Below, in pieces: positions 8,796 to 63,998 of a stretch of DNA of 64,000 nucleotides. Under the pieces are notes generated by a model. The model ran no database searches and was not told where the DNA came from. It saw only the letters and a program-made list of their open reading frames with translations. The stretch lies in assembly GCA_012960245.1 (NCBI GenBank), contig DUBO01000012.1, positions 1-64,000 of the forward strand, in the 5' to 3' direction. Source of the DNA: Candidatus Binatota bacterium. Its GTDB lineage: Bacteria; Desulfobacterota; Binatia; UBA1149. Numbering within the stretch: position 1 is the first letter of the stretch; the number at the start of each line of letters is the position of its first letter. A program made the position numbers and the translations under genes.

Positions 8796-9418
8796 CCCTG
8801 GCTGAACGATGGGAGGCCCTGTCGCTTCGCGAGCGCGTGCTGGTTGGTGGCGTGGGGCTGTTGCTCCTCGCTTTTGGTGGTCGTTCTGCCTTCGTCGCCG
8901 TGGTGGCGGAGGTGCCCGGCGGAAGCACCGACGAAGCCTGGGTGCAGTTGAAGAAAATAGATACCTACAACAGGGTCTACGCGCGCCACGACGCGGCCGA
9001 GAAGCGGCAAGCAGAGGCGCGGGAGCGTTACCGGCGCGTTCAGGCGAGCCTGATCCCCGGTTCTACGCCCACGCAAGTCGGGGCCGAGCTGCAGGGAGAC
9101 CTGGGAACCATGGCGGGAGCGGCCGGTCTCAATGTTCTCAGCTCGCAGATACTGAGGGTGGAAGAAGTCCAGAACTTTCACCGCATCGGAGTGAGGCTTA
9201 CCCTCAGCGGCAATCTCAGCGGCGTGGCGAGGCTGCTGTCGTCGATTGAATCTGATGATATAGACTTGCGGGTTACCCTGTTGGAAATAAACAGAAAACT
9301 CGGCGCGCGCCGCCGGCCGACGCCTACCGCTAGGCCGGGTACGACTTCCACCAGCTCCACGGTAGCGGCGCTCACGGCCACGATGGAAGTGAAAACCTTC
9401 ATGCAGGAGCAGTTGTGA
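8792..9418 (+). CDS. gspM: GspM-like type II secretion protein
   Basis: A 208-residue protein with a short cytoplasmic N-terminus, one membrane helix at about residues 20-40 ('VGGVGLLLLAFGGRSAFVAVV'), a coiled-coil stretch and a C-terminal ferredoxin-like fold with 'VQNFHRIGVRLTLSGNLSGV'. This matches GspM/PilO architecture; GspM partners GspL in the inner-membrane platform. Sequence conservation in the family is low, so the name rests on topology and on position (four-base overlaps with gspL and with the next gene). Confidence 0.82.
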   Translation: MTLAERWEALSLRERVLVGGVGLLLLAFGGRSAFVAVVAEVPGGSTDEAWVQLKKIDTYNRVYARHDAAEKRQAEARERYRRVQASLIPGSTPTQVGAELQGDLGTMAGAAGLNVLSSQILRVEEVQNFHRIGVRLTLSGNLSGVARLLSSIESDDIDLRVTLLEINRKLGARRRPTPTARPGTTSTSSTVAALTATMEVKTFMQEQL

Positions 9419-10191
9419 AAGGCTTGATGCAGGCCGTTGCCCTCACGCTGGTAGTGCTGGCCGCTATCCTGGGCTGGCGTATTGTTTCGGTGGTGAGCAT
9501 CCAGCCTCCGCTTTTCAACGAGTTACCTGGCCAGCTGCTCGGAGAGTCTTTGCGGCCCGCTCCCAGGAGCTCTCCAGCCACGGGCCCGGTAATAAAGGCT
9601 ATATTGGACGGCAACTTGTTTGAGACCGAGAGGGGCTATCGGGAAGAAATTGTTGAAGTTGAGACCCAGGTCGCGCTGCCACCCCCGACGAACATCGTTT
9701 TGAACGGCGTAATTTCGATTTCAGGCCAGCCGGTGGCGATTATGAACGACACCAAGGTGGGCAATGCGCAGCTTTCTGTCAGCAAGGGTGATATGATCGG
9801 GGATTACGAGGTCGGTGAGGTCACGCCCAACGGGGTGATTCTCCTCGGAGCGGGGGGGCAGCAGTTTTCCGTGGGGTTACAGGTTCGTAAGGGTCCTGGG
9901 GTGAGAGCGCGCACGCGTCCGGCAGCGGGACGTGCGCCTGCACGCCCTACCAGCACCGGCCGGGCGACCACCGCAGCTGAACGGGCATCGACCGCTTCGG
10001 CAAGGGCGGCGAGGGCGGCGGCAACCAGGCCGCCGGCCGCGGCCAGGACGGGAGTTTCAAAGTCGATACCGAGAGGTAGGCCGACCGGTGCTGACCAGGT
10101 CGAGAATCCCCAATCGGGAACCTCGAGTGCGGCCCAGGCTCGCTTGGAGGCTCTCAAGCGACTGCGACAGGCTGCGAGCCAGGCCAGGTAA
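9415..10191 (+). CDS. gspC: GspC-like type II secretion protein, no recognisable PDZ domain
   Basis: A 258-residue protein starting at a GTG that overlaps gspM by four bases. One N-terminal membrane helix is followed by a Pro-rich linker and the homology region that binds the secretin N0 domain in GspC proteins ('LPPPTNIVLNGVISISGQPVAIM', 'LSVSKGDMIGDYEVGEVTPN'). The usual C-terminal PDZ or coiled-coil domain is missing; instead there are about 90 residues rich in Ala, Arg, Thr and Pro, probably disordered. It lies just before the secretin gene, as expected for its binding partner. Confidence 0.82.
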   Translation: MKGLMQAVALTLVVLAAILGWRIVSVVSIQPPLFNELPGQLLGESLRPAPRSSPATGPVIKAILDGNLFETERGYREEIVEVETQVALPPPTNIVLNGVISISGQPVAIMNDTKVGNAQLSVSKGDMIGDYEVGEVTPNGVILLGAGGQQFSVGLQVRKGPGVRARTRPAAGRAPARPTSTGRATTAAERASTASARAARAAATRPPAAARTGVSKSIPRGRPTGADQVENPQSGTSSAAQARLEALKRLRQAASQAR

Positions 10192-10194
10192 AGA

Positions 10195-12600
10195 GTGATG
10201 TATACTAAATCGTCTTACTGGATACGTTTCTCCCGAAAAACGCTGTTGGTCCCTGCTGCTGCTTGCCTGCTGGCGGCCGTTTTTTATGCACCGGCTGCTT
10301 TGGCTCAGAAGCTGCCGGGCGTGGGTGACGAAACGCCGGGGGCTATGGAAAAGAGTCGTGTCCAGGTCGAGAGCGGAGAGCTCAGCCCTGCGGCCAGGCT
10401 CGGCCGGTTCGTGGAGTCGGAGTACCAGCGTAAGCTCAAGCAGCAGGGCGGCGGCGTAGTCCAGCCGGTCGCAGCCTCGGTCCAGCCGGTCGCCGCAACT
10501 GTTCTCACCGCCGTCGAGGACAATATCAGCTCAGAAGAAAGCGACGACGAATCGGTGGTGCTCAACTTTGAGGGCGCCGACATACGCGAAGTCATCTTCG
10601 CCTTGGCCAGCTCATTGGGTATCAACTACTGGATTGATCCACGCGTAGCCGGTCAGGTTACGGTGCGCACCACCGGTCGTATCTCGCGCGGCGACCTCAT
10701 GCCGGTGTTTCACCAGGTGCTGCGCAACAACGGGTTCGTGGCGGTACTTGAAGGAGACATTCACTCGATAGTGCCGGCTGAAGAAGGACGCACGCGTGTG
10801 CGGGCGGGAAAAGAGACCGACGAGGGCGGTTTCGTGATGGAGCTGGTCAAGGTCCGCCACGTCAACGCCGAAGAGTTGGTCACAGTACTGCAGCCCTTCG
10901 TGTCGCCCGGCGGCGACCTCGTGGCCTACCCACGCAGCAACCTCGTGATCATTACAGAGTTGGCTTCGCGGGCCGACCGATTGCTCGAGCTGCTGGGCAC
11001 GTTCGATACCGATACCTTCGGCGATCTGACCGCTCGCATATACCATGTAGAGCACGCTTCGCTCGAAGAAGTGGCCGAGGAGCTCTGGGCTGTGCTGGAG
11101 AGCTACCAGGTTTCGAGTTCGGGTGCCGGCGTGTACATCATCCCACTGCTTCGACTCAACTCGCTAGCGGTGATCGCTTTCGACCCGTCGATTTTTGTCA
11201 ACGTTGAACTGTGGCTTGGCTTGCTCGATGTTCCCGCGGAGGGCGGCTCCATCCGCCAGGTGCACGTCTACCAGGTAGAGAACACCAAGGCTGTCGACTT
11301 GTCGGATATTCTCAACGACATTTTTTCTGATGAGGGCGGTGAGGGTAGCAGGCGGCGCTCGCGTTCCGGTGAGCTGGCCGAGTCCAATGCCGGGCTCGGG
11401 GGCGGGCTCGGGTCGTCGGCCCAATCGCGGCAGGCCAAGGGCGGGGACCGGCGTGGTGGCTCGCGCAAGGGACAGCCCGGCGGTGCGCCAAGGGCGCGAA
11501 CCAACATCTCTGGTGGCCTCGGCCAGGATTCTGTCCTCGAACGACCGGGAGCACTGTTCGAGCAGGAAGTCCGCATAGTAGCCGACGAGGTCACCAACTC
11601 GCTGGTCATCATAGCTACGCCTCGTGACTACGGCACAGTGGAGAGCGTGCTGCGCCAACTCGACGTTGTGCCACGCCAGGTGCTGATAGAGGTTCTTATC
11701 GCCGAGATATCTCTTACCGACAATGAATCTTCTTCGGCTACTCAGAGATTACTCGGTAATGCTAGCAAGGACAGCGATGGCAACATCATAAATGATCCGG
11801 TTATCGGTGATATGGGGGGGAGTTTTCTCGACATGTTCGGCGAGGCGGTCAGGTTAACCGGCACGCTAGGCGCCGGTGGCGTAGCGGGAGTTTTCACCCA
11901 CTTCAGGGGGAGCATGGCCGTGTATGAAGCTACCTTGTCATCGCTTGCCTCCGAGGGGCGCCTCAAGGTGTTGTCGCGTCCGCAGATCATGACCGCAGAC
12001 AACCAGGAAGCCAGTATACTCGTGGGTTCTGAGGTGCCCATAATCACCAGCCAGGTCGACTCCAACACGGCGGTCGGCGGATCAACCGGAACCCGTAACG
12101 AGGTCCAGTACCGCGACACTGGCATTTCCCTCACCGTACTGCCGCAGGTTAACTCGCAGGGCCTGGTCAACCTCAGTATTTCGCAGGAAGTAAGCAAGAT
12201 TGACAAACCCGCGCTGCAGGTCGGTTCGGGGGACGACGCGTCGACCGTTATCAACTCTCCCACCTTTATAACCCGAGAGGCAGAGACTACCGTGGTCGTG
12301 CAGAGCGGCGAGACAGTGGTTATCGCTGGTATTATCGACGAGCAGGAAACCTCTTCAGAAAGCGGGGTTCCTTTCATCAAGGATCTTCCCGTGCTGGGGC
12401 AATTCTTTCGCAGTCACTCCAAAGACGTGAAACGTACGGAACTGGTGATCCTGATTACGCCCTACGTCGTGCGCGACAGGGAAGAAGCCCGCGCGGTTTC
12501 CGAGGACTACAAGGAAAGGGTGGAGTACCTCATGGAGGACCCCGACCTGTTTGGCCCGAAAGATCGCGACGGCAGCCACACGGTCATACTGGGCGGCTGA
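10195..12600 (+). CDS. gspD: Type II secretion secretin GspD
   Basis: An 801-residue outer-membrane secretin. An N-terminal signal peptide ends near 'APAALAQ'. After a linker with duplicated 'QPVAA' come the N0 domain ('LNFEGADIREVIFALASSLG'), N1-N3 domains, and a Gly/Arg/Ser-rich insertion of about 80 residues around 385-460 within N3. The C-terminal secretin domain follows ('VLIEVLIAEISLTD', 'VLSRPQIMTADNQEASILVG', 'QYRDTGISLTVLPQVN', 'VPFIKDLPVLGQFFRSHS'). Translation may start at the GTG here or at the ATG one codon later. It closes the operon; secretins more often precede gspE. Confidence 0.97.
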   Translation: MMYTKSSYWIRFSRKTLLVPAAACLLAAVFYAPAALAQKLPGVGDETPGAMEKSRVQVESGELSPAARLGRFVESEYQRKLKQQGGGVVQPVAASVQPVAATVLTAVEDNISSEESDDESVVLNFEGADIREVIFALASSLGINYWIDPRVAGQVTVRTTGRISRGDLMPVFHQVLRNNGFVAVLEGDIHSIVPAEEGRTRVRAGKETDEGGFVMELVKVRHVNAEELVTVLQPFVSPGGDLVAYPRSNLVIITELASRADRLLELLGTFDTDTFGDLTARIYHVEHASLEEVAEELWAVLESYQVSSSGAGVYIIPLLRLNSLAVIAFDPSIFVNVELWLGLLDVPAEGGSIRQVHVYQVENTKAVDLSDILNDIFSDEGGEGSRRRSRSGELAESNAGLGGGLGSSAQSRQAKGGDRRGGSRKGQPGGAPRARTNISGGLGQDSVLERPGALFEQEVRIVADEVTNSLVIIATPRDYGTVESVLRQLDVVPRQVLIEVLIAEISLTDNESSSATQRLLGNASKDSDGNIINDPVIGDMGGSFLDMFGEAVRLTGTLGAGGVAGVFTHFRGSMAVYEATLSSLASEGRLKVLSRPQIMTADNQEASILVGSEVPIITSQVDSNTAVGGSTGTRNEVQYRDTGISLTVLPQVNSQGLVNLSISQEVSKIDKPALQVGSGDDASTVINSPTFITREAETTVVVQSGETVVIAGIIDEQETSSESGVPFIKDLPVLGQFFRSHSKDVKRTELVILITPYVVRDREEARAVSEDYKERVEYLMEDPDLFGPKDRDGSHTVILGG

Positions 12601-50574: not shown

Positions 50575-50612
50575 AAGGGCAGCGCGGCCGGGTTCTCCTG
50601 CTTCAGCTGCCC
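50573..50612 (-). terminator. Intrinsic terminator of sat
   Basis: On the minus strand GGGCAGC (50606-50612) pairs with GCTGCCC (50577-50583) and is followed by TTTT (50573-50576). The first arm overlaps the last codons of sat. It lies between two convergent genes and has no T-tract on the plus strand. Confidence 0.55.
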
Positions 50613-51865
50613 TGGGCCATGTGGTGGCACAGGATGTCTGAGGTTCCTTCGCGCATGATACGCGGGTCTACCTTTTCGCCAGCCAGCAGGGTCTTTCGCA
50701 CGTCCTTGCCCGATATGAACACGGGCTTTTCCTCGTCGTGGTTCTCCATCAGGTCCACCCGGCCAAGCGACTCGTAGTAGGCAGCAAAGCCTACGTTGAC
50801 CGTCTGTATGTCGAGCTTGCCGTTGAGCTTGCCGAAGATTTCCTGGGCGTCAAAGTCACCCCAGATGGCCGAGCCGTCGGCGAAGGGCGCGTCGGCGTGC
50901 TTACGGCCGATGATGATGTCGGTAAAGCCGTAGTTCTGCCGGTAGATGCCGTGCATGACAGCTTCTTTCGGGCCGCCATAGTACATCTTGATATCAAGAC
51001 CGAGCAGCATGACGCGGTCGGGCACCGAGTCGTCCCTCGCGTCCCACAGGGCCGGGTCGCTGTCGCCTTCGCCTATGCCACGCGATTCGATCAGGGCCTG
51101 GTAGGTCTGCATCCTCACCTCGGCGTTGACGTCGTCGCCCTTGGTCTCGCCCACGAGCGGGTTGAGACAGGCGCCGGCGTTAAGATCCTGCTTGAGCAGC
51201 GTCTCCAGTCCGTACACCAGTGCGTACTCGTGGGCGCGGTGCAGGGGGTTTCGGGTCTGGAAGGCCACCACACGCTCCCAACCCAGGTCTGCGAGCATCT
51301 GCCTGACCTCCACCGGGGATTTCACCGAGGCGCCGAAAGCCGGGTTTGTGGGCTGGGGAAGCACGCGTATGGAGCCACCCAGCAGGTGGCTGCAAGCGGC
51401 GTCGCCCTTGAGTGCCATGTCGGCTCCCGGGTGGTCTTCGCGGGTAGTGCCGTAGACGCTTTCGAGGTAGCGGGGCTTGTCCCACTCGTACACGTCTGTC
51501 AGTTCGAGGATGGCCACCAGATCGCCGCCGGGGGATTCGAGCGCCACCGACTGCCCGGCCGAAAGCGTGGCCGCCAGCTCTGCGCTCACGGGCAGGGCCA
51601 TGGGGATGGTCCAGGCGTAGCGCTCACCGTTGTTCTCGATGACGCCCTCGTCGAGCGAAAGATTCCACGCGGCCTCTCCCATGGGGCCCTCCAGCGGGCT
51701 CAAGGCGCCGTCGCCGAAGCGGTAGACCGTAGAAAGATCGGCTGCCGAAACGGGCACGCGGGTGAGCGAGGCGGCTTCGCTGGCAAAGCTGCCGAGGTCG
51801 GCTTCGGCGACTGTTCGGTTTACCGGGGTGCTGAGTCCGCCGTGGGGCGAGATAAGGTCGGGCAT
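50603..51865 (-). CDS. sat: Sulfate adenylyltransferase (ATP sulfurylase), Sat type
   Basis: A 420-residue single-chain ATP sulfurylase that converts sulfate and ATP to APS. The PUA-like N-terminal domain leads to the catalytic part with '[18 protein letters not shown]' (the Q-x-R-N-P-x-H-R-x-H motif) and '[13 protein letters not shown]', the counterpart of the GRxHAG motif with Asp replacing Gly. No fused APS kinase domain is present, and no apr, dsr or cysD/N genes are in the window, so assimilatory use is more likely than dissimilatory. GAGGAG precedes the ATG. The next gene upstream on this strand is an anion permease. Confidence 0.94.
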
Positions 51866-51897
51866 GTTATTCTCCTCAAAAGTCTAGTTAATCGCGC

Positions 51898-51926
51898 AAT
51901 TTAGACCATGCGGACGGCGGATCCAA
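51898..51926 (-). promoter_or_regulatory. Possible sigma70-type promoter of sat
   Basis: On the minus strand TTGGAT (51921-51926) and TAAATT (51898-51903) are 17 bases apart, about 30 bases before the sat ATG. Both elements are only partial matches. Confidence 0.4.
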
Positions 51927-51999
51927 ACTTTCGCCATGGGGGCGTCCGGTGGCTGGGGAGGACGGCCGGTGGGGGGAGCGGTCACCGTGAACCAGCGGT

Positions 52000-53454
52000 C
52001 TACAGGTGGATGTAGCCGGCCCAGGTCCAGTAGAAGCGCACCGTGAGATTGAACACGACCCAGCCGGTGGCGCCCATAATCGCGCCGGGCAGGATGATGT
52101 CGCGCAGGCGCAGAAAGCCCGACGAGTAGGCGATGGCGTTAGCCGGTGTGCCGATGGGAAACGCGAAGGCCAGCCCCGCCGGTATGGCGATGAGCGGCGC
52201 TATGGTGGCGGGCACCAGGCCTATGGTGTCGGCCATTCCAAGGCCCATGGGCATCATCAACGCCACCACGGCCGAGTTGCTTATGGCCTCGGTGAGCAAC
52301 CAGGAACTCGCCGACAGGGCGGCGACGGCGCTCGAGGGGCTGTCGGCCATCAGGCCCAGGGTGCGCTGGGCCAGCCAGGTGGCGGCCCCCGAATCGTTGA
52401 GCGCCGCGCCCAGGCAGATCGCGCCGCCGTACATCAGGATGATGCCCCAGTTGACGTACTCCTCCACGTCGCGCCACTTGACCAGCTTGAACACGAACAG
52501 CAGCACGATGGCGCCTATGGCCACGTTGGCCAGCCCGAGGTTGTGCCCGGCCAGCACCCAGGTGGCCACGGTTCCGAGCATTACGGCTCCTATGGCCTTC
52601 TCGTCACGGCTCATCGGGCCCAGTTTCGCCACCTTTTCGGCCAGGGCCGTCTCGGCGTCGGCCACGCTGTCCTGATCGATGGGGAAAAATCTGGTTATGA
52701 CCAGCCAGCCCACCCCCAACATGACCACTACCACCGGCAGCGCCCTGAGCGTCCAGTCGAGAAAGGTAAAGGGGTTCGTGCCCTCGTACTGCTCCAGTAT
52801 GCCCAGGGCCAGCGGCGCGCGCCCCCCGCCAAGCAGGGTGGCCACCCCGCCTATGGTTGAGCCCCAGGCCAGCGCCAGGAACAGGGCCTTGGCATAGCTG
52901 CTGCGGCGCTGCCTGAGCTTGAGCACCATGACTATCTCCATGATGATCGGAAAGTTCATGGCAGCCACCGCGTGTTCTGACATCCAGAAAGCCATGAAGG
53001 CGTTCATGAGAAAGACCGCGCAGAGCAGCGAGCGGGGGCTGTGACCGAAGCGTCGCAGGAAGAGCAGCCCCAGCCGCGTGGACAGGCCCGATTTCATCAG
53101 GCAGGCGGCCAGTATGAAGGCGCCCATGATGAAGAACACGGCAGAGTTGCCAAAAAGAGAATAGGCCTGCTCGGCCGGCATTATGCCCGTGAGCGGGATG
53201 AGGGCTATGGCCATCAGGCTGGTGATCATCAGCGGCAACACGTTGAGAACCCACCAGGTCAGGCACAGGGCGAATACCGCCATGGCCTTGCGTCCTTCTT
53301 CGGAGAGGCCCTCGGGAGTCTCCATGCTGTACACCAGCACGAACAGGCCCACGCCCAGGAGCAGGCGCAGGGGGCGGTTCAGCCGGCTGAGCAGCACCAG
53401 GGCCAGGGGCCGGGTGTCGACCACGTATTGTTTGCTGGTGTTTTCCTGGCTCAT
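52000..53454 (-). CDS. SLC13/DASS-family anion symporter (possible sulfate or dicarboxylate permease)
   Basis: A 484-residue inner-membrane transporter with 11-12 helices. The DASS/CitT signatures are visible: 'ALIPLTGIMPAEQAYSLFGN', 'SAVFFIMGAFILAACLMKSGLS' (split), 'LNDSGAATWLAQRTLG' and 'IPAGLAFAFPIGTPANAIAYSSG', the last a conserved substrate/Na-site loop. Members carry sulfate, citrate or C4-dicarboxylates with sodium. Because sat lies 134 bases downstream on the same strand, sulfate is a reasonable guess, but this is context only. Confidence 0.85.
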   Translation of the reverse strand: MSQENTSKQYVVDTRPLALVLLSRLNRPLRLLLGVGLFVLVYSMETPEGLSEEGRKAMAVFALCLTWWVLNVLPLMITSLMAIALIPLTGIMPAEQAYSLFGNSAVFFIMGAFILAACLMKSGLSTRLGLLFLRRFGHSPRSLLCAVFLMNAFMAFWMSEHAVAAMNFPIIMEIVMVLKLRQRRSSYAKALFLALAWGSTIGGVATLLGGGRAPLALGILEQYEGTNPFTFLDWTLRALPVVVVMLGVGWLVITRFFPIDQDSVADAETALAEKVAKLGPMSRDEKAIGAVMLGTVATWVLAGHNLGLANVAIGAIVLLFVFKLVKWRDVEEYVNWGIILMYGGAICLGAALNDSGAATWLAQRTLGLMADSPSSAVAALSASSWLLTEAISNSAVVALMMPMGLGMADTIGLVPATIAPLIAIPAGLAFAFPIGTPANAIAYSSGFLRLRDIILPGAIMGATGWVVFNLTVRFYWTWAGYIHL

Positions 53455-53515
53455 GGCCTTATCGGCTGACGCCCCTGGGCTGTAGCCGCGTTTCTCTTGC
53501 GCGGCGGCGGACGGT

Positions 53516-54742
53516 TCAGAGCTGGGAGGAATCGAAAGAGTCGCTCACCTGTTTGACCCGCAGGCGACGCCTGAACCGCGAAAGGCTGCGGGCCGCGCGG
53601 CCACCCAGCCTTGAACGGTAGAAGCTGCTCACCGCGACGTCCAGTTTAGCATCATCTCCGGCAAAGAATCGAGCTTCGAGCGGGGTGACGGCCTGGCCGA
53701 GATCGCGCAGCCACTGCAGGTTGAGCCTGCCCTCGCGCGCGGCCTTGTAGAGGTGGGCGTATACGGGCACCACGTCGTCGGGGTCGGTCAATGGGTGGGC
53801 GGCCAGGCTGGCCAGGTCAGAAGGACGGTGAAGCGATAGGACCGGCAGCACGCCCAGTGAAACCAGCAGGTCGATACCTTCCATGGTCGAGGTCGGTTCC
53901 TCCAATCCCACCATGAGGTCGCTCCATACGGTTCCGCGCGGGAATACCCGTGCCGCTCGCTCAAGGGCGGCCAGGGTCTGTTCGCGGGGCACCTGCGTGC
54001 ACCTGTCCGCGCAAGTCCTGGCCAGGCTCTTGTCGTCGAAGGTAAAAAGCGGGTAGTTCACTGCGTCCACGCCAGCGGCGTAGGCTCGGTCCACCCAGCC
54101 GGCATCGATCGGCGGGCTCACCTGTATGGCCACCAGGGTATCAAAATGCTCCTTGACGGCCTTAACGTAAGGCTCAAGCAGGGCGAAGCCTCCGTCGTCG
54201 TCGTGGTAGTGGCCGGTGCGAAAGTAAATGAACTCGACCGCGCCTTCGTCGAAGGCCGCGCGTATTACTTCGAGGACTTCTTCCAGGGGCCAGGGCTTGC
54301 GACGAGTGGCGCCGCGGTTGCGGCGGGCGGGGCAGAGCACGCAGGGCTTGCTCTCGCCTGCGAACGCACAGGCGCCGGCCGGGTCTATGGCGAGAAAGTC
54401 GCCGTGCAATAGCCCCAGCCGGTTCATCTTTGTGCCTGCCGAAGTCGTTTTTGCGTAGAATTCGGGCCGGCCCACCACGCTCACCGGCACCGGTGTTGAG
54501 TCGTCTCCGGTGCGCAGCAGGAAGCGGTCGTTTTCAACAGTAAGTCGATGCCTCGAACCGCCGTCTCCGCCCTTGTCGACCTGGCAGCTGGCCACGAGGT
54601 CACCGGGAAGCAGCAGCTCAACGAGGTTGTCGCCGCCGGGCTCGGTGCCGGCGGCCGCCAACTCGGCGGCTTCCAGTCCCTGCTCGAGTCTGAGCCCGCG
54701 CATGGCCAGCTCCAGCTTGAGGTGGGCCGAGCTGGCGTTCAA
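53516..54742 (-). CDS. Radical SAM-like protein with atypical C-x8-C-x2-C motif
   Basis: A 408-residue protein from a TTG overlapping the preceding stop (TTGA); a GTG 11 codons earlier is possible. After about 120 residues of unfamiliar N-terminal domain comes 'GLLHGDFLAIDPAGACAFAG' and three Cys spaced C-x8-C-x2-C ('ACAFAGESKPCVLCPARRN'), in place of the usual C-x3-C-x2-C. A TIM-barrel-like sequence follows with radical SAM character ('EVLEVIRAAFDEGAVEFIYF', 'AIQVSPPIDAGWVDRAYAAGVDAVNYPLF' in part, 'VWSDLMVGLEEPTSTMEGI'). I infer a 4Fe-4S cluster and SAM chemistry; the reaction is unknown. It is the last gene of the SAM-riboswitch sulfur operon. Confidence 0.7.
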   Translation of the reverse strand: MNASSAHLKLELAMRGLRLEQGLEAAELAAAGTEPGGDNLVELLLPGDLVASCQVDKGGDGGSRHRLTVENDRFLLRTGDDSTPVPVSVVGRPEFYAKTTSAGTKMNRLGLLHGDFLAIDPAGACAFAGESKPCVLCPARRNRGATRRKPWPLEEVLEVIRAAFDEGAVEFIYFRTGHYHDDDGGFALLEPYVKAVKEHFDTLVAIQVSPPIDAGWVDRAYAAGVDAVNYPLFTFDDKSLARTCADRCTQVPREQTLAALERAARVFPRGTVWSDLMVGLEEPTSTMEGIDLLVSLGVLPVLSLHRPSDLASLAAHPLTDPDDVVPVYAHLYKAAREGRLNLQWLRDLGQAVTPLEARFFAGDDAKLDVAVSSFYRSRLGGRAARSLSRFRRRLRVKQVSDSFDSSQL

Positions 54743-55194
54743 GCCTGCTCGCCTCGCAGCAGCCAGGCCAGGCACAGGCAGGCGGCCTCGCAGGCGGCGG
54801 CCTGTTCGAGGCCGGGCTCGTTAGGGGCCCCAGCAGAGGGTAGTTCGTTCGCCGGTAGCTTGTCGGAGGGCAGAAGCGCCATTGCGCTCGTTGTCTGCCC
54901 GTTTGCGTGGCCGTAGCAGGCAACGGGCGTGCCGGCTTCGAGCAGCCCGGCAGCCATCTGCATGCAGTTGGGACCAAGGAGCGCGCAGTCGCCCTGGTAG
55001 CGCTGGTCGGAGCCTGTCTCGCGGTCCACCGTAACGCCCGAAGCGGCCAGGTAATCGGCCGCCGTCTGCTGGCCGGGCGTGCAGCCGAGCACCAACACGC
55101 GGGCTGCGAGCAGGCGCTCTTGTCCGGCGATTCCAATTTCGGGCAGGATCACCTGCCTCGAGTAACGTTCGAGCTGTTCGTCGCTGAGCGACAT
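54739..55194 (-). CDS. Short degenerate E1-like (MoeB/ThiF N-terminal) protein
   Basis: A 151-residue protein. The first 37 residues are a textbook MoeB/ThiF N-terminus: 'LSDEQLERYSRQVILPEIGI' and 'GQERLLAARVLVLG'. The following nucleotide loop is ruined ('LGCTPGQQTAADYL' instead of GAGGLG), no ATP-binding Asp/Arg/Lys motifs follow, and the protein ends where a full E1 has 100 more residues. It keeps Arg13 of RYSRQ, equivalent to the arginine finger that MoeB-type enzymes insert into the partner subunit. The other E1 in this operon lacks exactly this segment. A decayed remnant is the alternative, but the frame is intact and coupled to its neighbour. Confidence 0.75.
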   Translation of the reverse strand: MSLSDEQLERYSRQVILPEIGIAGQERLLAARVLVLGCTPGQQTAADYLAASGVTVDRETGSDQRYQGDCALLGPNCMQMAAGLLEAGTPVACYGHANGQTTSAMALLPSDKLPANELPSAGAPNEPGLEQAAACEAACLCLAWLLRGEQA

Positions 55195-56846: not shown

Positions 56847-58082
56847 TCAGGTCAGGGTGGCGTACAGCTCGTCAAAATCTGCCAGCCTGGCCGGTATCAC
56901 GTGCGGTTCCTTCACGCTGGCGGTCACCGCCTCGATAGTCTTGTAGCCGTTGCCCGTAATGCTGATTACTATCGATTCGTCGCGCGGTATGCGGCCGGTG
57001 TCTATCAGCTTTTTTGTAACGGCAACGGTCGTACCGCCAGCCGGTTCGGTAAAAATACCCTCGGTGCGGGCCAGCAGCTTGATGCCCTCCACTATTTCTT
57101 CGTCGGTCACGCTCTCGCCCCAGCCGCTGTGCGAGCCGCGTACGGCCTTGAGCACGTAGTAACCGTCGGCCGGGTTTCCTATGGCTATCGACTTGGCAAT
57201 GGTGTCGGGCTTTACGGGTTCGATGAGTTCGCTGCCGGAGTGCAGGGCATTGATGACCGGCGCGCAACCCGACGCCTGGGCCGAGTAAATCGACCAAGGC
57301 TCGTCGGCCACCAGTCCGAGGCGGGTAAACTCTTCGAAGGCCCGCGCCACCTTGGGCAGTATGGTGCCGCCGGCGGTGGGCACCACTATGTGGCGGGGCA
57401 GTTTCCAACCCAGCTGCTCGGCCACCTCGAAGCCGTAGGTCTTGGCGCCCTCGGTGTAGAAGGGACGCAGGTTGATGTTGACGAAGGCCCAGCGGTACTT
57501 GTCGGCTATCTCGGCGCACAGCCTGTTTACATCATCGTAGTTGCCCTTGATGGCCACCGGGACCGGGTCGTAGATGACCGAGCCAATGACCTTGCCCTGC
57601 TCGAGGTTGTCGGGGATGAAGATGTAACATTTTAACCCGGCGCGCGCGGCGTGGGCCGACACCGAGTTGGCAAGGTTGCCCGTTGACGCGCAGGCCACGG
57701 TGTCAAAGCCCAGCTCCACGGCCTTGCTTATGGCCACCGAGACCACGCGATCCTTGTAGGAAAAGGTCGGGTGGTTGCAGGAGTCGTCCTTGACGTAGAG
57801 CTCTTCGACCCCCAGCTCACGGGCCAGATGATCGGCCTTTACAAGCGGCGTCCAGCCCGAATACAGGCCTATGGTGGGCTCGTTTTCCACGGGCAGCAAC
57901 TCGCGGTAGCGCCACAGGTTATGAGGTCGCGACTCGATGAGCTCCCTGCTTATGACCGAGGCGATGGCGTCGTAGTCGTACTCCACCTCCAGCGGGCCGA
58001 AGCAGTACTCGCACACGTGCTCGGGGCCGATTTTGTATTTTTCGCCGCACTCGCGGCAGGTCAGTCCATTTACGAAAGCCAT
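56847..58082 (-). CDS. thrC: Threonine synthase
   Basis: A 411-residue PLP enzyme of fold type II. I chose the ATG giving 'MAFVNGLTCRECGEKYKIGP'; a longer frame lies inside the ThiF gene. The N-terminus has a rubredoxin-like zinc motif ('CRECGEKY', 'CEYCFGPLE'), common in this subclass. 'DDSCNHPTFSYKDRVVSVA' holds the Schiff-base Lys, 'ACASTGNLANSVSAHAA' the Ser-x-Gly-Asn loop and 'VPTAGGTILPKV' the phosphate loop. Normally it makes threonine from phosphohomoserine. Its place between an E1 and a sulfur carrier under a SAM riboswitch raises the possibility of a sulfur-transfer reaction on phosphohomoserine. Confidence 0.9.
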   Translation of the reverse strand: MAFVNGLTCRECGEKYKIGPEHVCEYCFGPLEVEYDYDAIASVISRELIESRPHNLWRYRELLPVENEPTIGLYSGWTPLVKADHLARELGVEELYVKDDSCNHPTFSYKDRVVSVAISKAVELGFDTVACASTGNLANSVSAHAARAGLKCYIFIPDNLEQGKVIGSVIYDPVPVAIKGNYDDVNRLCAEIADKYRWAFVNINLRPFYTEGAKTYGFEVAEQLGWKLPRHIVVPTAGGTILPKVARAFEEFTRLGLVADEPWSIYSAQASGCAPVINALHSGSELIEPVKPDTIAKSIAIGNPADGYYVLKAVRGSHSGWGESVTDEEIVEGIKLLARTEGIFTEPAGGTTVAVTKKLIDTGRIPRDESIVISITGNGYKTIEAVTASVKEPHVIPARLADFDELYATLT

Positions 58083-58807
58083 GATTCCTGTCTCCGTTGT
58101 CCTGTTTCCTGCACCTGCAGGGGGTCTAGCCTGGTAACTGCCGTGGCGCAGATGCAGCCCGGCCTTGGCCGAAATTCCACGCTGCGCCAGCGCGGCTGTT
58201 TGATCTGAAATATTCTCATGCACCCGCCGCGGGCACGTGCGGGATCGGCGAGTACGCGCGAGGCTTCGAGCGCCTGAAGTGAGCCTAGGACGCCGGCAAC
58301 CGGGCCAAGCAGGCCCAGCTCGCCGCAGCCCTCGCCGGTGGTGCCGGCCATGTTGTCAGGCGAGGCGGCCCCGGGCGGAAAGACACACTCCAGGCAGGCC
58401 GAGCGCCCTGGGATGACCGTCATCAACTGCCCGCCCATGCGGGCTACGCCGGCGTGGCAGAAAGGCGTACCGCTGGCGAGCGCCGTGCGGTTGATGACAA
58501 ACTTGCTGGCCGGGTCGTCGCAGGCGTCGATAACGAAATCGTGTTTCTCAAACAATGAAGCAGCGTTGTCCTCGTCAAGGCGAAGGGGCAGGGCGGCGAT
58601 CTCCAGATCGGGCTGCCCGGCCAACAGTGCGAGTCGGGCCTGCTCGGCCTTGTTGCGGCCCAGGGTCGAACGGTCGAACAACAGCTGCCGTTGCAGGTTG
58701 GACAGCTCAACTCGGTCGGGGTCGATCAGGGTCAGGGCGAAGCCCGGCGTTGCAGCAAGCGCCGAGGCCGCCGGGCAGCCCAAGGCACCGGCGCCCACTA
58801 TGAGCAC
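58070..58807 (-). CDS. ThiF/MoeB/HesA-family E1-like adenylyltransferase lacking the N-terminal segment
   Basis: About 245 residues from the GTG chosen here, which has AGAGGAA 12 bases upstream. An in-frame ATG at 58861 lies inside the riboswitch terminator and is rejected; TTG codons at 58846 and 58843 are other options. 'LIVGAGALGCPAASALA' is the nucleotide loop, 'DPDRVELSNLQRQLLF' has the Asp and Arg of the ATP site, 'LGRNKAEQA' the Lys and 'VIDACDDPASKFV' the catalytic Asp. A zinc-type 'CLEC' is present, and Cys in 'TTGEGCGELGLLG' may be the sulfur-relay Cys. The usual first 35 residues with the RYxRQ arginine finger are absent. It should adenylate the sulfur carrier's Gly-Gly. It overlaps thrC by 13 bases. 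Confidence 0.85.
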   Translation of the reverse strand: MLIVGAGALGCPAASALAATPGFALTLIDPDRVELSNLQRQLLFDRSTLGRNKAEQARLALLAGQPDLEIAALPLRLDEDNAASLFEKHDFVIDACDDPASKFVINRTALASGTPFCHAGVARMGGQLMTVIPGRSACLECVFPPGAASPDNMAGTTGEGCGELGLLGPVAGVLGSLQALEASRVLADPARARGGCMRIFQIKQPRWRSVEFRPRPGCICATAVTRLDPLQVQETGQRRQESWLS

Positions 58808-58844
58808 CCGTCGTCTGTTCCTCTGTGGCTGTCGTTCGCGCAAC

Positions 58845-58890
58845 AAAAAACCCCTTCCCATCGGCCTTTACTTGCGTGGCCAGGAAGAGG
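58845..58890 (-). terminator. Expression-platform terminator of the SAM riboswitch
   Basis: On the minus strand CCTCTTCC (58883-58890) pairs with GGAAGGGG (58851-58858), GGCC pairs with GGCC inside, and six T follow (58845-58850). The 5' arm is shared with an antiterminator: GGAAcGGTT (58898-58906) pairs with AACCtcTTCC (58883-58892). Confidence 0.85.
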
Positions 58891-59029
58891 TTCTAGTAAC
58901 CGTTCCCGCCCCATTTTCCGCATCTGCAACCAAGGCAGGCGTAGGAATTAGCACCTGCACTTCCCCGCGGGGAAGCCGGCTGCTGTGGTTTCAACGGGCC
59001 TAATCCCTCCACCACTCGCAATAAGGCAG
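58845..59029 (-). ncRNA. SAM-I (S-box) riboswitch with transcription-terminator platform
   Basis: The minus strand has the S-box core: GGTGGAGGGA, GGCCCGTTGAAACC, an extended P3 hairpin (GGCTTCCCCGCGGGGAAG region) and AGGTGCTAATTCC. P1 can form between CTGCCTTATT (59020-59029) and AATGGGGCGG (58906-58915), ten pairs with three G-U. The aptamer is 58906-59029; the antiterminator and terminator fill 58845-58906. The promoter 5' of it would start transcription at the P1 strand. High SAM should favour P1, release the terminator and switch off the sulfur operon. The 58808-59171 stretch holds only this element, its promoter and about 110 bases with nothing recognised. Confidence 0.9.
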
Positions 59030-59033
59030 CCCA

Positions 59034-59062
59034 AGAGTAGCGCTTGGCCCGGGGGCTGTCAA
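59034..59062 (-). promoter_or_regulatory. Sigma70-type promoter of the SAM-riboswitch operon
   Basis: A perfect TTGACA (59057-59062) and TACTCT (59034-59039) on the minus strand, 17 bases apart. The expected start at about 59027-59028 falls at the 5' strand of riboswitch P1, which supports both calls. Confidence 0.7.
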
Positions 59063-59171
59063 AAGAGTCGTTTCTGCGGCCGGCTACCCGCTATTCCGGT
59101 GTGCGCTCGGAGGACCCCTGCAAGCCAGGCCGGGCTTGATTCGCGGTGCTCCTGCGTGCAAGGGTGTCGTC

Positions 59172-59906
59172 ATGCACAACCAGCCGCTTGCGCTCGACGG
59201 GTCGTTTAATTTCAGGGATATCGGTGGCTACAGCACGGCGTCGGGTCAGTCGGTTCGCCGCTCTATCGTTTATCGGGCCGACACCCTGCACCGACTGAGC
59301 GACAGCGACGCGCGCGTGCTCGAGGGTCTTAGCATCGCCAGGGTCGTAGACCTGCGCAGCGATCTGGAACTCCAGCGCGACGGGGTGGGAGTGTTCGTGG
59401 AGGGCAGGGGCATTCACGTGCACGCTCCGCTGGTGGCGGTTTCGCTCAGCCCCTTCGACAGCGACATAGACTGGGGCAAGGTCGACCTGCGCGAGCGTTA
59501 CATCGAGATGCTTGAGGTCGGTACTGCTGCAGTGCGCGAAGTTTTCGAGTCGGTGGCAGGCGACCGGGTGCCACTGGTGTTTCACTGCACCGGCGGGAAG
59601 GATCGCACTGGCGTGGTAGCGGCACTGCTGCTGCGAACGCTGGGGGTCAGCGATGCGGTGATAGAGCAGGACTACAGCGCCTCGGAGCGTTACCTCGCGC
59701 AGGTCATAAGCAAGCACCGCGGCGCGCTGGAGGGCGAGGGATTGGCCGACGACGTGATAGCCTACCTTTGCTCGAGCCCTGCCTCGAGAATTCGCTATAC
59801 ATTGGAGCAACTCGACCGGCGCTGGGGTTCGACGCAGAACTACCTGCTGCAGGCCGGGGTCGATAGGGTTACGCAGGACGCGTTGCGCGATAAGCTGCTG
59901 GGCTGA
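59172..59906 (+). CDS. Tyrosine-specific/dual-specificity phosphatase (Y_phosphatase3 family)
   Basis: A 244-residue protein. The ATG gives 'NQPLALDGSFNFRDIGGYST', the 'NFRDIGG' opening of this family. The P-loop 'VFHCTGGKDRTGVVAALLL' has the C-x5-R signature with the K-D-R-T variant seen in MptpB/IphP-like enzymes, which hydrolyse phosphotyrosine or phosphoinositides. No signal peptide is seen, so it is probably cytoplasmic. It is divergent from the sulfur operon and convergent with bamD. The physiological substrate is unknown. Confidence 0.88.
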   Translation: MHNQPLALDGSFNFRDIGGYSTASGQSVRRSIVYRADTLHRLSDSDARVLEGLSIARVVDLRSDLELQRDGVGVFVEGRGIHVHAPLVAVSLSPFDSDIDWGKVDLRERYIEMLEVGTAAVREVFESVAGDRVPLVFHCTGGKDRTGVVAALLLRTLGVSDAVIEQDYSASERYLAQVISKHRGALEGEGLADDVIAYLCSSPASRIRYTLEQLDRRWGSTQNYLLQAGVDRVTQDALRDKLLG

Positions 59907-59909
59907 CGC

Positions 59910-60581
59910 TCAGCTACCGGCCAGTCGTTCGCGGGCTTCGCGCGCGGCCGAGGTCAGCGGATACTCGTCGAGGACGAAGTGGAAGCGGAGGTCCGCCGCA
60001 GCGGTGTCGCCCGTTCGGCGGTAGTAGTCGCCCACGTACAGTTCCTGGTCGGCCAGGTTCTCGTGGCATTCGGCCTTGCGAAAGCGAGCCAGGGTGGCCC
60101 ACACCGAGTCGGGGTACCTGAGTATCACCCGGTCGAAGTGCAGTATGGAGTTGACCGATGAGCTCTTGTCCCTGTCGGCCGAGCTCGCCTGGTCGAGCCA
60201 GCACATGCCCGTGATGTACTGCGAAAAAGCTATGGCTTTACTGGCAGGATAGCGTCGCTCGAAGTCTTCGAAGGTGCTCACCGCCTGGTCGTACTTCCGG
60301 CCGAGGTAAAACGCATGGGCCACGCGCAGCCTGGCCAGCTCGGAGTGTTCAGAGAACGGGTGCTGGTCGAGCAATCGACTGTATTCTTCTACCGCGAGCA
60401 TATAGTTACCCGACTCGAAGGCCCGCGCCGCGTTCACCGCGAGGTGGGTTTCCTTGGGCGGCGGGGGAGTCGAGCAGCTCGCTGCCGATAACAGCAGCAG
60501 GCTGGCAAGGAGGCAGGGGACCAGCTGACCTGCCAGGATCCGGGAACGCTTGAGCGAAAATGACTGTAGCCCGTGTTTCAC
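59910..60581 (-). CDS. bamD: BamD-like outer-membrane assembly lipoprotein
   Basis: About 223 residues from GTG 60581; the frame can also start at TTG 60590. The lipoprotein signal ends 'LLASLLLLSAASCSTPPPP'. TPR-like repeats follow with BamD pattern ('ARAFESGNYMLAVEEYSRLLDQHPFSEHS' in part, 'KYDQAVSTFEDFERRYP', 'YPDSVWATLARFRKAEC', 'YYRRTGDTAAADLRF'). BamD is the essential lipoprotein of the beta-barrel assembly machine with BamA. No other bam gene is in the window. Confidence 0.9.
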   Translation of the reverse strand: MKHGLQSFSLKRSRILAGQLVPCLLASLLLLSAASCSTPPPPKETHLAVNAARAFESGNYMLAVEEYSRLLDQHPFSEHSELARLRVAHAFYLGRKYDQAVSTFEDFERRYPASKAIAFSQYITGMCWLDQASSADRDKSSSVNSILHFDRVILRYPDSVWATLARFRKAECHENLADQELYVGDYYRRTGDTAAADLRFHFVLDEYPLTSAAREARERLAGS

Positions 60582-60650
60582 AACCCGCAATGTAGCGGCT
60601 GGCGTCGGCAGGGTCTACAGTGGGCCGGCTCGCAGGGCTGGGCGAGGTAT

Positions 60651-61622
60651 ATGGCTGATACCAGGCTGCAGATAGTGGTTGGCAAGGGAGGCGTGGGCAA
60701 GTCCACTGTCGCGGCGGCACTGGCTTTGGAAAGAGCGGCGCGCGGTGGACGGGTGCTGGCGCTTGAGCTGGGCGGTAGCGGCGGGCTGGCGCGAGCGCTG
60801 GGCGTTGAGTCCTCGTCCGACCCGGTAAAGACAAGTCAGGCCTTGCCGCCGGGCGAAGTCTACGTGGCGTCAGTGGATGGCGAGGCGGCGCTCTCGGAAT
60901 ACCTGGCCCTGATGGTACCCGTGCGGCGAATGCTTCACGGCGTGACGACCAGCCGCTTTTACAAGGCCTTCGTCGGTGCCGCGCCGGGGCTGAAAGAACT
61001 GATGGCCGTAGGCAAGGTCTGGTACGAGTGCCAGAAGACCAACGACGACGGCAGCCCGACCTGGACTACCGTCATAGTTGAGGCCGGCGCCACCGGCCAC
61101 AGCTTGCGCTACCTGCGTATGCCAGAGGTAGCTGCGCGGACTTTTGGCTCGGGCCTGGTGCACAGGGAGGCCGTCAGGGTGGGCGACATGCTGTGCGATC
61201 CCGACTACTGCCGCGTGCACGTGGTGGCCTTGCCCGAGGCGATGCCCTTGTCCGAGGCCCGCGAGGTGCTGGTCGCGCTCGATGAAGAACTGGGCATGGA
61301 GGTGGGCAGGCTCATCGTGAACTGTTGTCGACAGGCCGCGCCGCCCGCGGCCGAGCGCTTGTCCGGCGAGTTGGCGACTGCTGCATCAAGCGGGCCGGAG
61401 GGTGGTTTGGCTACCGTCCTGGCCGAGCTGGCAGCACGCGAGCTGTCCTGGCTTGGGATACAGGAACGAGGTCTTGAGCGTATAGAACGCGACAGCGGGC
61501 GCCGGGTGCTGAGGCTGCCCTTGCTGGTGGCAGAAGAGTTCGGACCGGCCGAGCTCAGCCGGCTCGCCGGGTTGCTGGCCGGAGAGCCGGGTATCAACGC
61601 AGGCGGGGTGGCTGAGTCGTGA
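60651..61622 (+). CDS. ArsA/Get3-like ATPase, subunit lacking the switch aspartates
   Basis: A 323-residue P-loop protein of the ArsA/Get3/MinD superfamily; the ATG has GAGG just upstream and replaces a longer frame start. The deviant Walker A 'VVGKGGVGKSTVA' keeps the signature Lys12. The switch I motif, DPA in Get3, is replaced by Gly-rich 'LELGGSGGLARALG', and the switch II Asp is Glu ('IVEAGATGHSLRYL'). It may bind nucleotide yet hydrolyse poorly. It overlaps the second ATPase gene by four bases. Paired ArsA-like ATPases occur in Actinobacteria and Myxococcota; their client (membrane-protein targeting or an unknown cargo) is not known here. Confidence 0.82.
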   Translation: MADTRLQIVVGKGGVGKSTVAAALALERAARGGRVLALELGGSGGLARALGVESSSDPVKTSQALPPGEVYVASVDGEAALSEYLALMVPVRRMLHGVTTSRFYKAFVGAAPGLKELMAVGKVWYECQKTNDDGSPTWTTVIVEAGATGHSLRYLRMPEVAARTFGSGLVHREAVRVGDMLCDPDYCRVHVVALPEAMPLSEAREVLVALDEELGMEVGRLIVNCCRQAAPPAAERLSGELATAASSGPEGGLATVLAELAARELSWLGIQERGLERIERDSGRRVLRLPLLVAEEFGPAELSRLAGLLAGEPGINAGGVAES

Positions 61623-62740
61623 GCGTGGGCGGGCTGCTTTCAGAGCACCGAGTGATTGTGTGCGTGGGTAGCGGCGGGGTGGGCAAAACCACCATCGCGG
61701 CGGCGCTGGCTTTGCGAGCTGCCGCCGAGGGCAAACGCGCCATGGTTCTCACCATCGATCCGGCCCGTAGGCTTGCCCAGGCACTGGGGCTGGACTCTCT
61801 GGCCAGCGGAGGACAGCGGGTGAGCGAAGAGGCGCTGGCCGCGGCCGACTGTCGCGTGAGCGGTACGCTCAGCGCCGGCATGCTCGAGCAGAAGGGCGCC
61901 TGGGACGATTTCATCCGCCGCAGCGCGGCCTCCGACAAAATCGCGGAGGCCATACTGGCTAACGAGTTTTACGGCCACCTGTCGGTTTCCTTCGCGGGTT
62001 CTGCCGAATACATGGCCGTTGAGGAACTCGCGCGCATAGTTGACTCCGAGCAGTACGATGTCGTCGTTCTCGACACGCCGCCCACGGCCCACGCGCTGGA
62101 CTTTCTGCTCGCGCCCCGGCGCCTGCGCGAGTTTCTTGATCGTTCGTTACTGGGGTGGTTGGTCAAGCCGTCGGTCGCGGCAGGAAAAGTGGCGTGGAAG
62201 ACCGCGCGGCGCAGCCTGGGCTACGTGCTCGACCGCCTGGAGGAGGCTACCGGGGCCCAGGCCCTGGCCTCGATAGCCGAGTTCTTTGTGGCCATGGATA
62301 CGTTGTTTGACGGTGTCGCTGAGCGAGGGGCCAGGGTGAGCGCGTTGCTCGAAAGCGAGCAGACGGCCTTCGTGCTGGTGGCCGGACCCGACGACAGGGT
62401 GCTCGACGAGAGTGACTACCTGCAACGGCGTATGGCTGAGCTGGGTGTTCCCCTGAGGGCGGTGGTGATCAACCGCCTGGCCGTATGCCCGCTGCAACCC
62501 GAGGCCCCGGCCCGCACCGAGGCCGCAGCATTGCTCGATGGGATGGATTCGGACGAGCTGGCCCGCAGCTGGCTTCTACAACTGTGGGACGACGCCTGGC
62601 GTGTGAGCCAGGGACAGGAACAGCGGCTGGAGGCCTTCGAGGCCCAGCTGCCCAAGGAGGTGAGAGTAGCCAGGGTGCCCGAAATGGATCACGACCTGCA
62701 CGAGCTGTCCGACCTGGCCGTCGTTGCGGCCGAACTGTAA
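61619..62740 (+). CDS. ArsA/Get3-like ATPase, subunit lacking the signature lysine
   Basis: A 373-residue partner of the preceding ATPase, GTG start, GTGA overlap. Walker A is 'CVGSGGVGKTTIAAAL', so the signature Lys of the deviant motif is Ser18, while the catalytic-loop Lys23 remains. Switch I 'LTIDPARRLAQALG' (Asp47) and switch II 'VVLDTPPTAHALDFLLAP' are intact. The active-site elements lost here are present in the partner and the reverse, as expected for a heterodimer in which each site borrows residues across the interface. No arsenic resistance gene is nearby, so arsenite export is unlikely. Confidence 0.85.
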   Translation: MSVGGLLSEHRVIVCVGSGGVGKTTIAAALALRAAAEGKRAMVLTIDPARRLAQALGLDSLASGGQRVSEEALAAADCRVSGTLSAGMLEQKGAWDDFIRRSAASDKIAEAILANEFYGHLSVSFAGSAEYMAVEELARIVDSEQYDVVVLDTPPTAHALDFLLAPRRLREFLDRSLLGWLVKPSVAAGKVAWKTARRSLGYVLDRLEEATGAQALASIAEFFVAMDTLFDGVAERGARVSALLESEQTAFVLVAGPDDRVLDESDYLQRRMAELGVPLRAVVINRLAVCPLQPEAPARTEAAALLDGMDSDELARSWLLQLWDDAWRVSQGQEQRLEAFEAQLPKEVRVARVPEMDHDLHELSDLAVVAAEL

Positions 62741-62756
62741 GCAGGGACGCGTTCCC

Positions 62757-63998
62757 TCAGGCAGCCGTGTCGAGGCTGCTCCAACGGCCGCAGCAGGTGC
62801 AACGCGGTGTCCATTCACTGCTGCCCGCCGAGCAGGCCGAGCATGCGAATATCGGTCCGGGGCCGTCCACAATGACTGCATTCCCATTGCTGCCGGCGCC
62901 GTTGGATACCCCGTTGCCCGACGCCGAGTTACCGGCCTCGATCTGCAGCCACAGAGTTTTTGCTGCGTCGTTGTCGGCTGCGGTTTTTTCGAGCAGCTCG
63001 CGGGCCGTATCTGCTTGCGAGTGGCCCGCGTAGTAGCGCGCCGCCAGCAGCGCCAGCCCCTGCTTGTCGGGGTAACGGGCCAGTAGCTTGTCGTAGAGTT
63101 TAGGCATGCGTTGAGTCTGGTCGCCGTCGGCCAGCAATTCCAGTTCGCGCAGCAGTATGGCCGCTGGTTTTCTCAGCACGGCTTTTTCCAGCAGCCGGGT
63201 GGCCTGGCGTTGATGGTCCGAGGTCGCCAGTGTGCGCGCGCGTTCGAGCAGGGCGGCCGAAAAGTCGGGATCGCTGTCGGTGATGCTCCTGAGCAGGGCC
63301 TCGCGCAGCTCGCCTTGGCTCTGCATTGCTTTTTCATAACGCGCGCCCAGCAGGCGGTTGCGCTCACCGTCGTCGTCGGGCCGTATGCGCGCCAATCGTT
63401 GTTGCACCTGTTCCGCGGCGTCCCAGTCGGACACTGCGAAGAGTTGGTCGCGCAGCATCTCCAGCACTCGCGGACTGTCGGGGTAGCTCGCACGCGCGCG
63501 ACCGAGCGCCGCCACGGCCGCCGGGTGATCGCCCAGCAGCGAGCAGGCACGGGCGTATGCAAAGAGCAGCAGGGGGTCATTGCCGAGTTCCTTCAAGCCG
63601 TCTTCCAGGATTTTGCGGGCCTGGTCGGGGCGGCCCTCTTCGAACCAGGTGTCGGCCATGTCGACCACCTGTCCGGGGTCGGGTTCGTGTTTTTTAGCCG
63701 CCTTGGTAAACAACGCCCGGGCGCGTGCGTAGTCGCCCGACAGTGCCAGCGAACGGGCCTCGCTGCGGGCCGACAGGCTCCAGGCGGCAGCTCTCACCTC
63801 GCGGTTGACCCGCCATGCCCGAAGCGCATTGCGGCCCTCGTGTATCAGCGCGAGCACGAAGATGGCCAGCGCGCCAGCGCAAAGCGACAGCAGCACCAGG
63901 ACCCCCACGGGCAGCTCCACGGCCCACTCGGCTCCCAGTGAGAACCGGGCCTTGTCGGGGTTCAGGTGTAGCAGGGCGGCGATGGCGCCAGCCATGAG
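62757..63998 (-). CDS. lapB: LapA-LapB-like membrane TPR protein with C-terminal rubredoxin-type zinc site (5' edge)
   Basis: At least 413 residues; an ATG lies at 63995, but the frame is open to the window edge and the first hydrophobic segment looks cut, so the true start may be outside. The N-terminal 65 residues resemble LapA (DUF1049): a hydrophobic strand, 'ALLHLNPDKARFSLG', a second helix ('PVGVLVLLSLCAGALAIFVL'), then a basic segment. About eight TPR repeats follow ('GDYARARALFTKAAKKHEPD', 'GRPDQARKILEDGLKELGND'). The C-terminus has two C-x2-C pairs ('FACSACSAG', 'PRCTCCGRW') as in LapB/YciM, which controls LPS synthesis through LpxC and FtsH. The order suggests a LapA-LapB fusion. 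Confidence 0.75.
   Translation of the reverse strand, partial: LMAGAIAALLHLNPDKARFSLGAEWAVELPVGVLVLLSLCAGALAIFVLALIHEGRNALRAWRVNREVRAAAWSLSARSEARSLALSGDYARARALFTKAAKKHEPDPGQVVDMADTWFEEGRPDQARKILEDGLKELGNDPLLLFAYARACSLLGDHPAAVAALGRARASYPDSPRVLEMLRDQLFAVSDWDAAEQVQQRLARIRPDDDGERNRLLGARYEKAMQSQGELREALLRSITDSDPDFSAALLERARTLATSDHQRQATRLLEKAVLRKPAAILLRELELLADGDQTQRMPKLYDKLLARYPDKQGLALLAARYYAGHSQADTARELLEKTAADNDAAKTLWLQIEAGNSASGNGVSNGAGSNGNAVIVDGPGPIFACSACSAGSSEWTPRCTCCGRWSSLDTAA

Follow-up and report, generated by a model that had tools for sequence, protein, structure and literature searches.

The window, by which we mean the whole 64,000-nucleotide stretch of DNA that was analyzed, comes from a genome of 2.8 Mb in 60 contigs that is 96% complete, and it carries two overlapping forward-strand genes, here called A and B. 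The two genes and their nucleotide-binding motifs are arranged as follows.

60651 to 61622, forward strand: subunit A, a BagA-like Get3/ArsA-fold ATPase of 323 residues, with the signature lysine kept and its own site degenerate
60681 to 60704, forward strand: P-loop of A, GKGGVGKS, with signature Lys12 (60684-60686) and P-loop Lys17
60771 to 60773, forward strand: switch I position of A, Gly41 in LELGG (counterpart in B, Asp47 in TIDPA)
61080 to 61082, forward strand: switch II position of A, Glu144 in IVEAGATG (counterpart in B, Asp152 in VLDTPPTA)
61619 to 61622, forward strand: GTGA overlap of 4 bp between the stop of A and the start of B
61619 to 62740, forward strand: subunit B, a BagB-like Get3/ArsA-fold ATPase of 373 residues, with its own site complete but lacking the signature lysine
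61667 to 61690, forward strand: P-loop of B, GSGGVGKT, with Ser18 at the signature lysine position and Lys23 kept
61757 to 61771, forward strand: switch I of B, DPARR, with Asp47 and Arg51 (61769-61771)
62072 to 62083, forward strand: switch II of B, DTPP, with Asp152

Gene A starts with ATG at 60651 and stops with TGA at 61620-61622, while gene B starts with GTG at 61619 and ends at 62740; the GTGA shared by the two suggests that their translation may be coupled. Both products match PF02374, the ArsA family, well above its cut-off of 24.3 bits (A, 77 bits; B, 110 bits), and both are, judged by sequence, real members of that family. The closest named relatives of A are found in the draft genomes "bacterium UBP10_UBA1149" (93%) and "Proteobacteria bacterium isolate NIOZ-UU50" (89%), UBP10 being, as we take it, a former name of Candidatus Binatota.

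The original prediction was that the two subunits have suffered complementary losses in their active sites, and the residues at the locus bear this out. A keeps the signature lysine in GKGGVGKS, lacks the switch I aspartate (Gly41), and has a glutamate at switch II (Glu144), and B lacks the signature lysine (Ser18 in GSGGVGKT) and retains both aspartates (Asp47 and Asp152). According to passages of PMC10248533, the first lysine of the Get3 motif GKGGxGK[ST] crosses the dimer interface and aids catalysis at the other subunit, just as had been supposed for the signature lysine at the outset, and the second binds phosphate in its own subunit.

Searches by sequence and by fold led to the same protein pair. 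The best PDB chain by sequence is 6bs3_A (Rv3679) for A (E 7.7e-25, residues 3-229) and 6bs3_B (Rv3680) for B (E 3.7e-59, residues 4-371, nearly its full length). These chains come from an entry entitled "Crystal structure of ADP-bound bacterial Get3-like A and B in Mycobacterium tuberculosis." Structure models, each computed for A or B as a single chain, returned the same best matches: the A model (pLDDT 92.9) fits 6bs3_A with a Z score of 30.4 and an rmsd of 3.0 over 307 residues at 26% identity, and the B model (pLDDT 87.1) fits 6bs3_B with a Z score of 31.6 and an rmsd of 3.9 over 348 residues at 37% identity. The helical stretch that follows switch II is longer in the B model (156-173, 175-182, 190-211, and 213-245) than in the A model (148-165 and 169-182), in a region where confidence in B is low around residues 170-220.

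BagA/BagB (Rv3679/Rv3680; PDB 6bs3-6bs5) of M. tuberculosis is thus the best match for both chains, and its motifs show nearly the same division. The mycobacterial A protein, with GKGGTGKS, EVEG, and VVDAPPTG, keeps the signature lysine and has lost the switch I aspartate as A of the window has, but it retains the switch II aspartate where the window has glutamate; the mycobacterial B protein, with GAGGVGKT, TIDPAKR, and VVDTPPS, has lost the signature lysine and kept the rest, like B of the window. With NF053622 (BagA), A scores 124.5 bits against a cut-off of 400, and with NF053621 (BagB), B scores 289.1 bits against a cut-off of 521; an actinobacterial pair from Tsukamurella, used as a positive control, exceeds both cut-offs (449.4 and 557.9 bits). 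Since the window pair stays below these thresholds, the name BagAB-like is used for it here rather than BagAB. The Tsukamurella genes are likewise adjacent and in the order A-B, but they differ from those of the window in gene neighborhood.

Get3 is a homodimer in which all catalytic residues lie in one chain. The Get3/TRC40 proteins of eukaryotes and archaea share the fold of A and B (3zq6, 2woj, and others, Z 26-29) and the same layout of P-loop and switches, but in the window pair the catalytic residues are split over two chains. Inspection of A and B by eye for a CXXC motif revealed none. ArsA, of the same Pfam family, is a pseudo-dimer of two Get3-like halves, and, unlike A and B, it keeps the signature lysine, the P-loop lysine, and both aspartates in each half (two ArsA proteins compared). 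Profile scores stay below the cut-offs for both of these families, with A reaching 69 bits and B 98.7 bits for TIGR00345 (Get3/TRC40, cut-off 135) and 35.9 and 60.7 bits, respectively, for TIGR04291 (ArsA, cut-off 650). In Get3d (NosGet3d and others), portions of PMC10248533 describe a similar drift of single catalytic residues, including replacement of the P-loop lysine by arginine, but in a protein that differs from A and B in being encoded by one gene, in having a C-terminal alpha-crystallin domain, and in keeping the signature lysine.

How strictly the division of residues holds was examined among relatives drawn from the window's class, other classes of its phylum, and three actinobacterial records, a sample that consists mostly of one class. 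After duplicates, recognized by identity of an inner 70-residue stretch, and controls had been removed, the final set comprised 130 A and 132 B sequences; three of the latter were incomplete (L226 and the two pieces of L241) and were dropped, leaving 129. Loci L069-L087, which are weak matches, were excluded from the scans, and the ArsA controls L131 and L132 were left out of the counts. Their four halves, three aligned with A and one with B, are canonical at all the positions considered. Smaller preliminary tallies agree with the final counts. In L241 (G300:C119), the B reading frame is interrupted, its two parts lying in different frames, and a KSGALSA stretch is repeated where the break occurs.

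The marker without a single exception is the signature lysine, which behaves in opposite senses in the two subunits: it is present in 130 of 130 A sequences and in 0 of 129 complete B sequences, where serine, proline, glutamate, alanine, threonine, aspartate, glutamine, or cysteine takes its place. The remainder of the B site is invariant, with Lys23 and Thr24 of the P-loop, Asp47 and Arg51 of switch I, and Asp152 and Thr153 of switch II all found in 129/129. In A, by contrast with its signature lysine, the P-loop lysine is kept in 110 of 130 sequences (the other 20 have arginine in 19 cases and threonine in one), and the switch I aspartate in only 41, being replaced elsewhere by G, E, A, R, N, H, P, T, or S. 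The switch II aspartate is present in 127 of 130, the three exceptions (L008-L010) having glutamate and all belonging to the window's genus, and Asn224 is kept in 129/129. Hence, the switch residues that had been put forward as markers of the split describe A of the window correctly but do not stand as a general rule, loss at switch I being frequent and glutamate at switch II local. Where A has lost its P-loop lysine, B lies in the same stretch in 17 of the 20 cases and is intact in all 17; the other three belong to family f12, in which B is located elsewhere. As the split of residues is present in all pairs examined, it is not a product of chance, and it is common to the window's phylum and Actinomycetota. 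Besides Arg51, Asp96 of B (61904-61906) is found in 129/129 B sequences, and the aligned ArsA half has Asn and Arg at these two positions.

The two genes also occur together. Among 148 genomes of the window's class, 101 contain both, one contains A alone, one contains B alone, and 45 contain neither; B is present in 102, as is A once one cross-match and two matches of Get3/ArsA type are removed. For six class genomes without A, four are among those listed as lacking B, and the other two (G013 and G026) lack B as well. In the class of genome G070, B was found in 16 of 97 genomes, with an A sequence for each of the 16 (L058 and L134-L148). Relatives with a single gene, which had been named beforehand as evidence that would speak against an obligate pair, thus came to two drafts among the 148 class genomes, of 1,040 and 450 contigs. 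One of them, G254, has B (L249) without A on a 5.4-kb contig, and its best A match was rejected as a cross-match to B itself; the other, G269, has two A matches, each starting less than 70 bases from a contig end, and no B. Because both are fragmented, neither decides anything. Weak A matches in G332 and G335 (approximately 1e-16) were also rejected, being of Get3/ArsA type (TIGR00345, approximately 130 bits over 155 residues); the one in G335 reads GKGGLGKT and SVDP.

Gene order is similarly constrained, with A followed by B on the same strand for 121 of the 130 A sequences, at a median of 57 nt from the stop of A to the P-loop of B. The nine A sequences that are not followed by B consist of L036, in which A is cut by the contig end, and eight members of family f12, and the ten B sequences that stand alone consist of nine of family f12 and L249. 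In this family (L096/L095 in G020, L251-L263, and L194/L195 in G025), the first pair has come apart: its A and B genes occupy separate loci, and each locus has recurring neighbors of its own. An apparent natural fusion of A and B, a 688-residue gene in L097 (L097:4671-6734, G019:C4, minus strand), was rejected as a frameshift in one genome, as the C terminus of A and its stop are found in another frame just before the start of B; the locus was counted as an adjacent pair.

In the class, the majority of pair-bearing genomes have two pairs, which are paralogous to each other. The second pair of the window's own genome (G000:C56:40132-42095; L038:4094-6102, minus strand) encodes an A protein of 292 residues and a B protein of 370 residues and shows the same split, with GKGGCGKT in A and GEGGVGKT in B.

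The direction of these changes was followed in quick FastTree trees, for which a long-branch warning was raised. In a tree computed jointly for A, B, and five controls, each of the three groups is set apart from the others by a branch (support 93, 100, and 98, respectively), so that each subunit has a single origin, and the signature lysine changes once, at the base of B. Constant in A and lost a single time in B, this residue offers no variation in which the co-variation proposed beforehand as a check could show itself. A separate tree, of A only and calculated after removal of the trait columns, requires at least 7 changes for loss of the P-loop lysine, at least 12 for the switch I state, and 1 for the switch II glutamate. 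If both lysines of A were equally free to be lost, the chance that seven independent losses would all fall on the P-loop lysine is (1/2)^7 = 0.008.

Considering these data, we propose that A and B form a BagAB-like heterodimer of the Get3 fold in which ATP is hydrolyzed in the B half, at a site completed in trans by the signature lysine of A, a reading to which we give a probability of roughly two in three. The site of B is complete but for the lysine that a partner would bring, and A always keeps that lysine; an A:B dimer would therefore contain one complete site, that of B. Judged by residues, a B:B dimer would lack the signature lysine altogether, and an A:A dimer would usually lack a switch aspartate. 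In this model, B would bind and hydrolyze ATP with its P-loop lysine and both switch aspartates in cis, and A would donate its signature lysine across the dimer interface. Retention of the switch II aspartate and of Asn224, which by analogy may be the adenine-side asparagine, suggests that A probably still binds nucleotide, but its site would be dispensable for hydrolysis and decaying. Hydrolysis at the single composite site would drive opening and closing of the dimer, as it does in Get3, and a client, perhaps a membrane protein, would thereby be carried or released. Thus, the heterodimer that was originally predicted is supported by the two chains of 6bs3 and by co-occurrence, and the accompanying claim that it has one working site, although an inference, is well supported by the pattern of conservation and is the best reading of the sequences.

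Some observations sit less comfortably with this reading. The invariant Arg51 of B could stand in for the signature lysine; the conservation of the switch II aspartate and Asn224 in A is more than a pure lysine donor would need; and in family f12, the genes of the first pair have been split to separate loci. The first two of these favor another account, in which the same heterodimer forms but the A site also turns over, slowly, with B giving a basic residue such as Arg51, which lies within switch I. Retention of the P-loop lysine in most A sequences would agree with this, and so would NosGet3d, which is reported in passages of PMC10248533 to have arginine at the P-loop lysine and glutamate at the switch I aspartate and yet to be an active ATPase, so that the losses seen in A need not kill its site. 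However, 89 of the 130 A sequences lack the switch I aspartate and 20 lack the P-loop lysine, and such repeated loss makes the A site look unheld by selection, while the site of B is intact in every complete sequence. We therefore consider two working sites unlikely, even if this is the likeliest of the alternatives.

Arg51 also opens the way for a second alternative: B would be active as a homodimer, its signature lysine being replaced by Arg51 or some other residue, with A acting as a regulatory or separate partner. Neither Arg51 nor Asp96 varies in B, the ArsA half aligned with it has other residues at both positions, and Arg51, which is part of switch I, may bear on the missing lysine. A precedent exists in McdA, which is listed with SGGQGKT, and hence without the signature lysine, in an excerpt of PMC9178275; B need not be dead alone for want of this residue. 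The separate locus of B in family f12 and the one draft genome with B only would also agree with an independent B. Against this, the M. tuberculosis homologs were solved as a single entry containing A and B, and the two genes co-occur strictly and in coupled order; moreover, Lys23 is the only lysine of B that reaches 85% conservation, and a B homodimer leaves unexplained why Lys12 is the most constrained catalytic residue of A. On balance, this alternative appears quite improbable to us. That the pair is simply an ArsA-type arsenite efflux ATPase of the usual sort, or a canonical Get3, with its sequence divided between two genes is hardly credible, for despite the PF02374 matches of A and B, their scores stay under the ArsA equivalog and Get3 subfamily cut-offs, the control ArsA proteins have complete sites in both halves, and no arsenic genes are found among the five neighbors scanned.

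One may go a step further and regard A as a dedicated lysine donor, a degenerate paralog with an ATP site of its own that has repeatedly been lost, kept for the residue that completes its partner's site. We advance this tentatively, at somewhat less than even odds. Such a donor could be likened to an arginine finger supplied by a separate protein.

The kind of heterodimer described here is already known from the solved Rv3679/Rv3680 pair. What is new is the strictness of the signature lysine rule, the repeated decay of the A P-loop, and the reach of the pair, known from mycobacteria, into a distant bacterial group. A literature search that did not extend to the primary publications (two in J Bacteriol, 2019 e00159-19 and 2020 e00202-20, listed among the references of PMC10597346) or to a 2023 J Mol Biol review found no paper on a one-site mechanism for BagAB; given this scope, we do not claim that the split is unreported. 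If the model is true, nature would here provide a Get3-like ATPase with one site, such that the contribution of the trans signature lysine is separable and each half represents one side of the chemistry.

With respect to function, a Get3-like chaperone or targeting role would be the most likely one for A and B, judging by fold. The mycobacterial pair is credited with protection against glycerol and nitric oxide toxicity in work cited in PMC10597346, and its mutants show enhanced fitness in streptomycin according to an excerpt of PMC12216072. Seven proteins were scanned at 56847-63995, and the five that are neighbors of the pair are a threonine synthase-like protein, a ThiF-like protein, a tyrosine phosphatase, a BamD-like protein, and a TPR protein. 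Across the class, gene order around the pair is conserved, with the clusters of the BamD-like protein and the tyrosine phosphatase on one side and, on the other, the TPR cluster together with additional shared genes. As this neighborhood points to no client and differs from that of the Tsukamurella pair, it gave no function.

At the locus itself, the BamD-like lipoprotein gene (59910-60590, minus strand; TIGR03302, 154.6 bits) is divergent from A, the tyrosine phosphatase gene (59136-59906, plus strand; PF13350) lies beyond it, and the TPR protein gene lies downstream of the pair. Elsewhere in the window, positions 7425-12600 encode a PilN-like protein and a GspD-type secretin, probably belonging to a locus for type II secretion or type IV pili, and genes for an ATP-sulfurylase, a sodium:sulfate symporter, and a radical SAM protein adjoin one another on the minus strand at 50603-54775.
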